This document shows positions 31,001 to 34,021 of a DNA stretch of 34,021 bases, one piece after another. Made by a program: the position numbers and the translations under genes. Position 1 is the stretch's first letter. Every line of letters begins with the position of its first letter. This stretch comes from Chitinophagaceae bacterium. Lineage in GTDB: Bacteria > Bacteroidota > Bacteroidia > Chitinophagales > UBA10324. Where the stretch lies: assembly GCA_947474435.1 (NCBI GenBank), contig CANJII010000035.1, forward strand, positions 1-34,021, given 5' to 3'. Below the pieces are notes generated by a model that saw only the letters and a list, made by a program, of their open reading frames with translations, was not told the origin of the DNA and ran no database searches.

Positions 31001-32974
31001 ATGACAAAGAAATTTCTGCTGTTAATTGTAGTGCTATTACCATTTTCACTATATGCAAATGATTATGTCATATCTGCTGATAGTTTATCAATTGTATTTG
31101 ATAACAACTGGAGATTTTCTGAGAACGATAACCCGGAAATGGCAAATGCAGAATACAATGACAGTAGTTGGTCAGTGCAAAGAGCATACATTGATAAAGA
31201 TGAAAGTCGTTCCGGATTTTTTAAAGGGTTCGGTTGGTTTCGATTTCACTTTGTTGTTGATTCAAGTTTGATAAATATTCCGCTGGCATTTTCAATGGAA
31301 CAACCCGGCGCATCAGAAATTTATCTCGATGGAAAACTAATTGTGAAGTATGGATTCATTAACGGAAAAGACAGCAGCATTTATTACAATCCGATTAAAA
31401 CACCTGAAATAATTTATCTGGCAAAGTCAGGCGCCCATGTATTTGCTGTGCGATATGCGAATTACAATCTCGGAGAAAACTATAATTCAGGTTTTCGTTT
31501 TGTGCTTGGTAAAGCCAGCCAAATGATAGCACAAAAAGAAACAAATGGTATTGCAACAACTTTCATTTCAGTTTCACTCGGCTTTATTTTTCTCACTCTC
31601 AGCTTTCTTCACCTATTTTTTTTCCTGTACTACCGGAGCATTAAGTCGAATTTGTTTTTCAGCATTTTTATGTTCAGTGTTGCCACACTTTTTTTTATAT
31701 TATTTATCGGTTCACTTGCACACAATCCACTGGTGATTTTAAAACTCCGGATATTCACTTTCTTCTTTATTGCATTCACTTGTTTATCATTTACTTTTTT
31801 TATTCACTATTTGTTTTCCAAAAAAACAAAATTCTGGCTCTGGCTTATTTCTCTATTCAATGTGTTTATGCTTGTATCGCTCTTTTGGATTGAAGATATT
31901 TTTCCGATGGCTATCACATCGCTTATAATCGGCGTTTGTTTTTACGGTTTGTTCAGTATTGGAGCGGCCCTTGTACAAAAAGTAAAGGGAGCATGGATAA
32001 TAGGCGCAGGAATTTTGTTCTTCATTTTGTTTTTGCTTACGGTAATTGCTTTTGCAATTATCAATGGAAATTTTGAATTAAATGACAGCACCCTTTTAGG
32101 GAAAATACTTTTACTGGCTTGTATACTCGCAGTGGTAAGTATTCCGCTTTCCATGTCTATTTATCAGGCATGGGGTTTTTCTGAATTGAATAAAGATTTA
32201 ACCAAACAATTGATTCAGGTAAAATATTTAGCCGGAATAACTTTAAAACAGGAAAACGAAAAAAAAGAAATTCTTGAAAACCAAAAAGCAGAATTGGAAA
32301 TAAAAGTAGAACAGCGAACACATGAATTACAAGTTGAAAAGAAAAAATCGGATGATTTATTACTGAATATTTTGCCCGAAGAAGTTGCGGAAGAATTAAA
32401 AGCAAAAGGCAGTGCCGATGCAAAACTGTTTGATGATGTAACAGTCATGTTCACCGATTTTAAAAACTTCACACAGATTTCAGAAAAACTTTCGCCGACT
32501 GAATTGGTCAATGAAATTCACACTTGCTTCAAAGCGTTTGATGAAATCATTTCAAAACACAACATCGAAAAAATAAAAACAATTGGCGATAGTTACATGT
32601 GCGCAGGTGGTTTACCTGTAACGAATAAAACAAATGCGATTGATGTTGTAGCAGCTGCAATGGAAATTCAAACTTTCATGCAGCAACACTCAGCAAAACG
32701 AATTAGCGAAGGCAAGGAAGTATTTGAAATCAGAATTGGTGTTCACACCGGTCCTGTGGTAGCAGGAATTGTCGGAGTAAAAAAATTCGCTTACGATATA
32801 TGGGGCGATACAGTAAACATTGCTTCAAGAATGGAATCATCAGGTGAAGCAGGTAAAGTAAATATCAGCGGAAGCACTTATGCATTAGTGAAGGATAAAT
32901 TCAACTGCAAATACAGAGGCGAAATAGAAACCAAGGGCAAAGGAAATATGCAGATGTATTTTGTGGAAGTATGA
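31001..32974 (+). CDS. Receptor-type class III adenylate cyclase
   Basis: This 657-residue membrane protein starts with a signal peptide (1-19). Next comes a periplasmic beta-rich domain (about 20-175) of the galactose-binding-like type, with WFRFHFVVD and YLDGKLIVKYG segments, then about seven transmembrane helices (about 185-390). A cytoplasmic coiled coil (about 395-460, VEQRTHELQVEKKKSDDLLLNILP) leads to a C-terminal class III cyclase domain (about 470-657). The catalytic metal aspartates are D486 (FTDFKNF) and D530 (KTIGDSYM). Adenine selectivity is indicated by K526 and D599 (YDIWG), with transition-state N606 and R610. All are intact, so an active ATP cyclase sensing an extracellular ligand is likely; the ligand is unknown. 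It is followed by two degenerate copies of its C-terminal coding motif. Confidence 0.92.
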   Translation: MTKKFLLLIVVLLPFSLYANDYVISADSLSIVFDNNWRFSENDNPEMANAEYNDSSWSVQRAYIDKDESRSGFFKGFGWFRFHFVVDSSLINIPLAFSMEQPGASEIYLDGKLIVKYGFINGKDSSIYYNPIKTPEIIYLAKSGAHVFAVRYANYNLGENYNSGFRFVLGKASQMIAQKETNGIATTFISVSLGFIFLTLSFLHLFFFLYYRSIKSNLFFSIFMFSVATLFFILFIGSLAHNPLVILKLRIFTFFFIAFTCLSFTFFIHYLFSKKTKFWLWLISLFNVFMLVSLFWIEDIFPMAITSLIIGVCFYGLFSIGAALVQKVKGAWIIGAGILFFILFLLTVIAFAIINGNFELNDSTLLGKILLLACILAVVSIPLSMSIYQAWGFSELNKDLTKQLIQVKYLAGITLKQENEKKEILENQKAELEIKVEQRTHELQVEKKKSDDLLLNILPEEVAEELKAKGSADAKLFDDVTVMFTDFKNFTQISEKLSPTELVNEIHTCFKAFDEIISKHNIEKIKTIGDSYMCAGGLPVTNKTNAIDVVAAAMEIQTFMQQHSAKRISEGKEVFEIRIGVHTGPVVAGIVGVKKFAYDIWGDTVNIASRMESSGEAGKVNISGSTYALVKDKFNCKYRGEIETKGKGNMQMYFVEV

Positions 32975-33109
32975 AGTCTTCCCTTTGGGAAGATTTAGAT
33001 GGGCTGAAGAATAAAGGAGAGATTGATATGTATTTCGTGGAAGGTTGAGTGAAACGAAATCCGCCTCTGGCGGAAAGCGATTGATATGTACTTTGTTGAT
33101 GCTGAATAA
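32975..33109 (+). pseudogene. Two degenerate cyclase C-terminal tails separated by palindromes
   Basis: After the cyclase stop, frame 33001-33048 encodes GLKNKGEIDMYFVEG and a stop, and frame 33074-33109 encodes KAIDMYFVDAE and a stop. Both resemble the true end (KGKGNMQMYFVEV). The ATG of the MYFV codons lies at 32954, 33028 and 33086, spacings of 74 and 58 bases. A perfect palindrome precedes each copy: TCTTCCC-TTT-GGGAAGA (32977-32993) and TCCGCC-TCT-GGCGGA (33060-33074). They are probably remnants from repeated insertion or duplication at the gene's 3' end, not expressed genes. Confidence 0.65.
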
Positions 33110-33137
33110 AACACTTAACAAAAAAAAGCCACATACT

Positions 33138-33188: not shown

Positions 33189-33542
33189 ATGAGTAAAAAT
33201 AAATTACATGAATATGCCCGTGAAAATAGAAAGAAGGCTACTGAAGCAGAGAATTGTTTATGGCAATGGTTGAGAAATAATAAACTGCACGGGTGGAAAT
33301 TCAGACGCCAACATCCATTGGCCGGAAACATGATTGCTGATTTTTATTGTGCACAGTTTTTTTTGATTGTTGAGGTAGATGGAGGAATTCACAATACTGA
33401 AGAAATTAAAGAAAAAGATGCAGGTCGTGATGAATGGAGTAAGGAATTAAATTATAAAGTATTGAGATTTACCAATGAGGAAATATTGAGTGATATTGAT
33501 TCTGTTTTGAAAAAAATAACAGCATTTATTCGCGCGCTTTAA
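33189..33542 (+). CDS. DUF559 (Vsr-like endonuclease fold) protein
   Basis: This is a 117-residue single-domain protein of DUF559, a family related to very-short-patch repair and PD-(D/E)XK nucleases. The conserved core is FRRQHPLAGNMIADFYCAQFFLIVEVDGGIHN with likely metal-binding residues D51, E62 and D64 and a conserved H68. The later DAGRDEWSKELNYKVLRFTNEEIL segment is also family-typical. There is no signal peptide. Its TAA stop (33540-33542) directly abuts a palindromic tandem repeat array, and the possible promoter lies just after the degenerate cyclase tails. Whether it acts on DNA repeats, in repair or in transfer is not shown by sequence. Confidence 0.88.
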   Translation: MSKNKLHEYARENRKKATEAENCLWQWLRNNKLHGWKFRRQHPLAGNMIADFYCAQFFLIVEVDGGIHNTEEIKEKDAGRDEWSKELNYKVLRFTNEEILSDIDSVLKKITAFIRAL

Positions 33543-34021
33543 ACCTCACCCCTAACCCCTCTCCAAACCTCATCCGCCTTCGGCACCTTCTCCACTCATG
33601 GAGAAGGGAAATTGCTAAGTATTTAATTAATTGAGAGGGGAACAGTCTCGACAAAATACATCGTGTCAATCTTCCTCTCCTTGAAAAGGAGAGGATTGAG
33701 GTGAGGTTGGCAGCGACAAATTCACCTCACCCCTAACACCTCTCCAAACCTCATCCGCCTTCGGCACCTTCTCCACGGATGGAGAAGGGAAGCGGATATG
33801 TGTTTGCTTTTTGGAGGGGGAACAGTCTCGACAAAATACATCGTGTCAATCTTCCTCTCCTTGAAAAGGAGAGGATTGAGGTGAGGTTGGTCGCGACAAA
33901 CAAACCTCACCCCTAACCCCTCTCCACACCTCATCCGCCTTCGGCACCTTCTCCACTCATGGAGAAGGGGAATTGCTAAGTATTTAATTAATTGAGAGGG
34001 GAACAGTCTCGACAAAATACA
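33543..34021. repeat. Tandem array of ~180-base palindrome-rich repeats, partial
   Basis: Three units start with ACCTCACCCCTAAC at 33543, 33724 and 33904, a period of 181 and 180 bases; the third is cut by the window end. Each complete unit contains GCC-TTC-GGC (33576-33584), CCTTCTCC/GGAGAAGG arms (33586-33607), and a 10-base-pair TCCTCTCCTT-gaa-AAGGAGAGGA hairpin (33673-33695). It ends in GGTGAGGTTGG, roughly inverted to its start, so each unit has imperfect terminal inverted repeats. A core of about 30 bases varies: units 1 and 3 are nearly identical there (one difference), unit 2 differs. No transposase is visible. A minus-strand frame across 33722-34015 is an artefact of the repeat. Confidence 0.9.

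Follow-up and report, generated by a model that had tools for sequence, protein, structure and literature searches.

DUF559 nuclease genes lie beside BoxC-like intrastrand triplex repeats and may be the movers of a minimal mobile element

The REP and REPIN sequences are short hairpin repeats that are dispersed in bacterial genomes as solo copies and as inverted pairs, and they are found beside the gene of a small HUH nuclease, the RAYT or TnpA-REP. Another family, the Rickettsia palindromic elements, consists of palindromes inserted in frame in coding genes; to our knowledge, no nuclease gene goes with them. A small nuclease of a different kind is seen in PDB entry 3r3p, annotated as a “mobile intron protein”, which we take to be the EDxHD homing endonuclease I-Bth0305I. 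Finally there are the BoxC or PIT elements, also described as the intrastrand triplex motif (TM), in which a pyrimidine–purine hairpin is accompanied by a third strand that mirrors the purine arm of the stem. According to the available text of Holder et al. 2015 (PMC4666352), E. coli MG1655 has 23 TMs, always intergenic and in five cases arranged as inverted pairs; BoxC/TM elements are reported there from over 260 genomes and are linked to instability of the genome, earlier work is cited as having found no promoter or terminator activity in the repeats, and no mobility function was found in their gene context. Its main text mentions neither DUF559 nor ycjD. In the accessible part of the open-licence PMC literature we found no paper that joins DUF559 or ycjD to intrastrand triplex repeats.

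The DNA analyzed here (the window) is the entire contig C35, 34,021 bp in length, of a 3.5 Mb genome in 98 contigs. Toward its end, a small DUF559 gene runs into a tandem array of hairpin repeats. The features are as follows.

31001–32974, plus strand: neighbor gene, an adenylate/guanylate cyclase (PF00211).
32977–33003, plus strand: upstream triplex-like unit TCTTCCC-TT-GGGAAGA-TTTAGATGGG, diverged, lying between copies of the cyclase tail; found by the relaxed scan only.
33189–33542, plus strand: DUF559 gene (PF04480, YcjD-like, PD-(D/E)XK nuclease) of 117 aa; ATG-to-TAA reading frame, assigned by Pfam.
33541–34021, no strand: tandem array with a 180-bp unit, of which 2.7 copies fit in before the contig ends, by Tandem Repeats Finder; it continues in contig C57.
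33544–33640, minus strand: first repeat of unit 1, with tail CCTCACCCC, linker TAA, stem CCCCTCTCC, closing GAGAGGGG (33633–33640) and a long loop that holds a nested hairpin repeat; by sequence inspection and the relaxed triplex scan.
33570–33609, minus strand: the nested triplex-like repeat (TTCTCC..GGAGAA) in that loop; relaxed scan.
33673–33706, plus strand: BoxC-like intrastrand triplex motif of unit 1, forming an inverted pair with that unit's first repeat; strict structural scan.
33853–33886, plus strand: BoxC-like intrastrand triplex motif of unit 2; strict structural scan.
33931–33970: unit 3 copy of the nested repeat, which passes the strict structural scan.

An earlier reading of this DNA from the sequence alone (the sequence-only reading) had the DUF559 stop codon followed by the first repeat without a gap. 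This is right: the TAA, at 33540–33542, overlaps the array, which starts at 33541. Tandem Repeats Finder gives the array a period of 180, 2.7 copies, 87% matches and a score of 808, the next-best array of the window scoring 68; the spacing of the copies is 181 and then 180. The complete array probably has about six units, because the final 112 bases of the window are identical to the initial 112 of contig C57 and the array extends from there to about position 706 of that contig. Within each unit two repeats stand in inverted orientation: CCTCACCCC-TAA-CCCCTCTCC, with a second hairpin nested in its loop, is joined by TCCTCTCC-TTGAAA-AGGAGAGGA-TTG-AGGTGAGG. Our strict structural scan looks for a pyrimidine-rich stem of 8 and then the third strand, with at most one mismatch per part; in the whole 34-kb window it finds just the three motifs listed above, all of them inside the array.

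Judged by their sequence, the repeats of the window obey the rule of the BoxC/PIT elements, and from this structural rule they can be predicted to fold as triplexes. On inspection, the window copies do not match the exact TM_ECO consensus, CCCTCNCCC N3-6 GGGNGAGGG N3 GGGNGAGGG, and they are classed as TMs by structure, not as TM_ECO. Rfam returned only two matches to microRNA families, far below the gathering scores. As far as the available text of PMC4666352 describes BoxC/TM_ECO, the likeness extends to the hairpin with its mirrored third strand, to linkers such as TTA, CCG and TCG, and to the occurrence of single copies and inverted pairs; unlike the MG1655 elements, which are always intergenic and have no mobility gene, the elements described here are tied to DUF559, occur in tandem arrays and are found inside coding genes. 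The sequence-only reading had likened the locus to a RAYT-type pairing of a nuclease with palindromic repeats, albeit with another class of nuclease. The arrangement holds, with one small nuclease gene adjoining short hairpin repeats that come solo and in inverted pairs; membership in the REP/RAYT family is rejected, since Pfam shows DUF559 and no HUH domain. The nuclease here is, by its sequence, of the PD-(D/E)XK type, the repeat is a triplex motif, and the cutting of the repeats by the nuclease is something we infer.

The window protein matches PF04480 over residues 5–114 with an E of 5e-33 (113.6 bits, against a curated cut-off of 20.6); apart from DUF559, Pfam reports two weak restriction-nuclease matches. 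A profile built from 11 DUF559 proteins recovered PDB 3hrl (E 1.4e-33), 3r3p (E 1.4e-6) and PvuRts1I (E 0.003), matches with E above 0.1 being treated as chance; the single-sequence AlphaFold2 model of the window protein is weak (pLDDT 66.5), and Foldseek found no significant match for it. Among the 80 best-scoring DUF559 matches listed in the survey described below, 14 positions were checked, and E21, W25, Q41, D51, E62, G65, H68, D77, R80 and R93 are invariant in 80/80, while R40, H42, D64 and N96 are not. Because these 10 of the 14 positions are invariant throughout, the nuclease copies look intact. This speaks against the part of the sequence-only reading that suggested a domesticated or non-autonomous element; the second of these terms does seem apt for the solo TMs, which look non-autonomous. 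From the motif, D51, E62 and H68 are candidate catalytic residues. Published work, as far as the texts are available, adds some background. YcjD was placed in the PD-(D/E)XK superfamily as early as 2005, when a YcjD profile matched Vsr at 1e-5 (PMC1189080). In Caulobacter, VsrA, which has a DUF559 domain, is responsible for an SOS response seen when a cytosine methylase is missing, and a role in repair has been proposed for this enzyme (PMC12907096); the family can therefore act on DNA in cells. In a Legionella evolution experiment, the recombination hotspots included three segments with a transposase and DUF559 (PMC12308824).

The survey covered 296 genomes of the window's phylum, 170 of which have a DUF559 match; judging from the nearest named relative, a Bacteroidetes MAG, the phylum is presumably Bacteroidota. 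From 61 genomes we took 80 DUF559 loci of up to 20 kb each, these being the best-scoring matches listed, with several from some genomes and the window's own left out. DUF559 genes are associated with TMs: the strict scan finds a TM within 500 bp at 64 of the 80 loci, as compared with 27 of 760 other ORFs of at least 100 aa in the same regions (5/222 for those of up to 200 aa; Fisher P 1.6e-58), none of 30 GIY-YIG loci and none of 30 Vsr loci. The sequence-only reading had proposed such a test of whether, in related genomes, the repeat adjoins DUF559 genes more often than expected, and the outcome is positive. The maximum in 20,000 permutations was 10, and the TM-positive loci come from 48/61 genomes and 22/27 families. 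In terms of density there are 156 TMs in 104 kb near DUF559 versus 61 in 1353 kb far from it, a 33-fold difference; reversed sequence, which keeps the hairpins but has the third strand on the wrong side, gives 2 near and 5 far with the same scan. When the 21-base motif of the window was searched for with up to 4 mismatches in 80 regions of other genomes, 14 hits fell within 500 bp of DUF559 and 4 elsewhere, while the reversed motif, similar in make-up, gave 5 and 5; the structural test is far stronger. Short words tell the same story, in that a set of 8-mers derived from 41 loci, when applied to 39 loci from other genomes, is represented by at least three members in 33/39 DUF559 flanks and in 28/421 control gene flanks.

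The association can also be read from the side of the repeats. Among the 51 genomes with at least two repeat-pattern hits, 39 have DUF559 at E 1e-10 or better, against 126/296 overall (Fisher 1e-7), and a strong DUF559 is absent from the remaining 12. There is no strict TM near 16 of the 80 survey loci. In the window's own family, where 12 loci were scanned out of 15 DUF559 matches, a strict TM lies within 500 bp at 5/12; the 7 without one include the two other DUF559 genes of the window's genome, which has three in all and a TM beside only one. Outside the survey, 19 loci were scanned, drawn from 17 of 38 matching plasmid-collection records, chosen across organisms, together with E. coli C600 and one MAG, three phage matches being left out. 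A TM is near 11 of these 19, in Gamma- and Alphaproteobacteria, Cyanobacteria, Deinococcota and a Bacteroidetes MAG: two E. coli loci that are one and the same gene, two loci each in Azospirillum and Synechocystis, three in Deinococcus, and one each in Photobacterium and the MAG. The 8 loci with none near are from Pseudanabaena, Sinorhizobium, Picosynechococcus, Sphingomonas, Shinella, Novosphingobium, Sphingobium and Methylobacterium. Taken together, the outside loci have 22 motifs in 25 kb near and 23 in 249 kb far, with 14 of the far ones in Photobacterium.

At 23 of the 80 survey loci, DUF559 lies in frame inside a longer reading frame (a looser rule gave 29), and a TM is within 500 bp at 22 of these 23; at 7 further loci it is fused to one end of the host frame. 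For 24 host proteins, inserts and end fusions together, Pfam identified MetH (4), HsdR (4), HsdM (2), methylmalonyl-CoA mutase (2), UvrD helicase (2), type ISP enzymes (2), two other methylases, an M23 peptidase, coproporphyrinogen oxidase (a fusion), a CobB/CobQ-type amidotransferase (a fusion, whose host was taken for PurL) and three cases of DUF559 alone. The in-frame repeats are translated as linkers such as SPLPLGEDLGEG. No splicing (Hint) domain was found at E 1e-8 in these 24 proteins, among which the LeuRS hosts discussed below do not figure, and in this the elements are unlike inteins. They are like the Rickettsia palindromic elements in placing palindromes in frame in coding genes, but the sequence is another one and a DUF559 gene is present here. 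As to I-Bth0305I, in the available text of PMC3943268, the resemblance lies both in sequence, DUF559 being related to 3r3p, and in having a small nuclease within a mobile unit placed in conserved genes; that endonuclease is hosted by an intron, whereas the DUF559 units are bounded by TMs and are either intergenic or inserted in frame.

Leucyl-tRNA synthetase was recognized as a host from its sequence and by a search with the leuS family. In a set of 30 chosen genomes, two places of insertion were compared, S1 (before FTTRPDT; extracted in 17/30) and S2 (after the RAKDW region; extracted in 21/30). At S1, a DUF559 domain is present in G068, G044, G217 and G118, with a strict TM on one side only in G068 and G118; the domain that G169 has there is degenerate. 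S2 offers a graded series: a DUF559 domain in G064, G095 and G153, a TM pair without the nuclease in G114, a single TM in G229, G276 and G118, and an empty site in G201 (from the genus of G064), in G017 and in the window's own genome. G064 has only one LeuRS frame over the family cut-off among the matches listed, and its interrupted LeuRS is therefore presumably functional. The idea of one lineage for each LeuRS site was found to be unsupported, as the tree, with 5 and 4 label changes, does not sort the inserts according to their site. In two of the LeuRS loci something else was noticed. In L244 (G083) the open LeuRS frame is 1127 aa long and no DUF559 match is listed for the genome, so that some other large in-frame insert is probable; in L250 (G137) the S2 region measures 480 bp, about 390 above its empty relatives, with no DUF559 in the part read. 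An HsdR frame at L122 (8375–12391) carries both GIY-YIG and DUF559 domains.

What would be the unit that moves? At the 45 loci with a TM on both sides of DUF559, the nearest flanking TMs are inverted in 36 (binomial P 7e-5), with tails outward in 18 and inward in 18. The clearest copy pair comes from G093, in which two DUF559 copies at unrelated loci have a 490-bp block in common, 85.5% identical and ending just outside the two hairpins; whatever else the two regions share is shorter and lies at different offsets. This 490-bp unit holds DUF559 only and no transposase, which sets it apart from DDE insertion sequences. A pair from G303 and G188 (L101/L106), which likewise has a 490-bp block in common, was considered as a second bare unit and dropped: upstream of that block another 140 bp match as well, with an almost unchanged offset, and the pair therefore marks no clean ends. 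In a tree of DUF559 proteins, built on few columns and with rough support, family f4 has its S2 LeuRS insert and its mutase insert in one clade (96/93), the M23 insert of G048 falls in a clade with MetH inserts (100/98) and three copies of G181 are one clade (100/97), groupings that would be expected of jumps within lineages. The HsdR inserts are one clade. Furthermore, the TMs that lie over 1.5 kb away from DUF559 are similar to those beside DUF559 in the same genome (mean rank 0.115; 23/40 in the top 5%), a likeness to which base composition may contribute in part. From these genome comparisons the TM–DUF559–TM unit seems to move as one, and we hold it very probable that the gene and its hairpin repeats make up a single family of mobile elements.

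In E. coli K-12, ycjD (b1289, 1351407–1351760) is a DUF559 gene, listed only as a DUF559 protein. There are BoxC-like places in E. coli with and without it. In 59 of the 60 E. coli records listed (the partial record H196 was dropped), and with a K-12 query made up of ycjD and TM no. 9 and the ycjD place itself counted, their median number is 22 (14–33) with ycjD (n=37) and 5 (2–19) without it (n=22). Twelve of the 22 records without ycjD have 2–5 places, and these are presumably for the most part of one phylogroup, B2. When the 12 records with at most 5 places are left out, the median without ycjD is 14, still lower (P 1e-5). This contrast fits a driver role of ycjD and is confounded by phylogeny, the strains being related, and by the K-12 query. 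The published TM no. 9 of MG1655 (1,351,204–1,351,239, in the available text of PMC4666352) sits between ycjD and fabI, 167 bp from ycjD; for one gene and 18 TM loci, the chance of such proximity is about 0.5%. A sapF–ycjD–fabI query is covered to at least 80% in 3,332 of 5,426 E. coli genomes, and a query of ycjD with TM no. 9 in 3,364 of 5,426.

In strain SCU-485, an efflux operon separates sapF from fabI, and FXCREC043 has the same genes after sapF in a stretch whose read part ends before fabI. These strains were rejected as clean empty sites of ycjD: there is no clean junction, because the efflux operon occupies the place after sapF. Not even the relaxed scan finds a triplex motif in the 13.5-kb stretch of SCU-485. 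The available text of PMC12817139 describes ycjD and the efflux operon as alternatives at the sapF–fabI locus. In the loci we looked at there (L261, L262, L263, L265), ycjD with its BoxC cluster alternates with the efflux operon, which has been read in a published paper as loss of the pump. A BoxC pair between hrpB and mrcB, with no nuclease gene, is absent in three E. coli strains, and a fourth has part of it; about 100 bp are missing. This is the one E. coli site whose joint was compared. It lacks a target duplication, and 10–15 nt differ at the joint, so this junction singles out no mechanism. Together with LeuRS S2, this pair supplies partial forms and also the empty sites in relatives that the sequence-only reading had proposed to look for. 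At a further BoxC site, zntA–tusA, the whole query is covered in 21 of 25 rows among the matches listed.

We consider it quite likely that the elements work in the following way. A full element would be TM–DUF559–TM with inverted TMs, about 490 bp long in the copy pair that was measured. The small PD-(D/E)XK nuclease would recognize TM DNA and nick or break it, perhaps at replication forks where the strand has folded; repair of the break from another copy would carry TMs, sometimes with the gene, to new places. TM pairs, single TMs and tandem arrays such as that of the window would then be non-autonomous derivatives, the arrays and solo TMs arising as by-products. That DUF559 is the mover is, taken by itself, likely to about the same degree. 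The more sweeping proposition, for which we see a little better than an even chance, is that DUF559–TM is an undescribed class of minimal mobile element of several bacterial phyla, consisting of one 120-aa PD-(D/E)XK nuclease between triplex-forming ends, whose in-frame entry into essential genes is tolerated in the form of additional protein, and that it is the missing mover of BoxC in E. coli, through ycjD, as well as in Cyanobacteria and others.

The same observations have been weighed against three other explanations. DUF559 could be a passenger, sitting in TM-rich places or carried along while other means, such as replication slippage or host recombination, move and amplify the TMs. The available text of PMC4666352 links TMs to instability without a known mobility gene, some genomes have the repeat pattern without a strong DUF559, and BoxC-like places persist in E. 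coli strains that lack ycjD, all of which would suit a passenger. However, the other gene classes, GIY-YIG, Vsr and the remaining ORFs, do not have the association, the DUF559 gene stands between an inverted TM pair in 36/45 loci, and in G093 it is the block from TM to TM that recurs at a second place, so that we think this account unlikely. A role of the protein in the host, as a repair enzyme or a Vsr-type anti-phage nuclease whose breaks let TMs accumulate or whose expression the hairpins aid, draws on the SOS response caused by Caulobacter VsrA in the available text of PMC12907096, on the 10 of 24 scanned host proteins that are of restriction-modification type, and on weak PADLOC matches of the window protein (best E 1e-5; none for YcjD). 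Against such a role are the inserts in LeuRS, MetH and methylmalonyl-CoA mutase, the fusion to coproporphyrinogen oxidase, presence and absence that vary at the strain level, and the Vsr genes without a TM near them; its probability is, in our estimate, smaller still.

Much the least probable is that the repeats are ordinary terminators or mRNA-stabilizing hairpins of small genes, an idea to which their being hairpins next to a stop codon lends some appeal. The enrichment is for the third-strand rule in the right order, with just 2 near hits in reversed sequence; the repeats also stand in frame within coding regions, small control ORFs rarely have a TM, and an equal frequency beside unrelated genes was checked for and not seen. 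The earlier promoter and terminator results, as reported in the available text of PMC4666352, count against it as well.

The preferred reading, in which the DUF559 nuclease mobilizes TMs, would have consequences beyond the window. By analogy, the elements look like REP/RAYT and homing elements in their working, and the REP/RAYT way of life would gain a second, unrelated class of nuclease. The BoxC/TM repeats, which in the available text of PMC4666352 have spread without known means, would gain a likely mover; with a nuclease paired with TMs, their spread would become testable in E. coli K-12, where ycjD adjoins one. Many DUF559 genes would acquire a role, and both the repeat-coded peptides and the DUF559 domains embedded in LeuRS, MetH, HsdR and others would be explained.

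A few further observations concern individual loci. On Deinococcus plasmids of two species (L276 and L279), TM–DUF559–TM units lie in the hpaB–hpaE neighborhood. The second DUF559 gene of the window's genome (L002, 1890–2269, in G000:C69) is near a contig end and also adjoins a repeat, in this case two 120-nt stretches of 97.5% identity, 260 bp apart, that do not follow the triplex rule. Counterparts of the cyclase gene in G011 and, as a partial match, in G012 have no DUF559 gene or array within the following 1.5 kb; they were dropped as an exact empty site of the window locus, since the downstream genes differ as well, and they show absence, not a clean empty site. In the window itself, 32941–33110 contains three copies of the cyclase gene's tail, with 24-nt direct repeats at 32944, 33018 and 33076, and two different hairpins, one of them triplex-like, separate the copies; it looks as if a cyclase tail had been brought in, or duplicated, with every insertion. 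The array unit, read as its reverse complement (33648–33672 and again in each further unit), encodes KIDTMYFVE together with a repeat-coded peptide, to be compared with GEIDMYFVE at the cyclase C-terminus, and it seems that the unit has acquired a piece of a cyclase gene.
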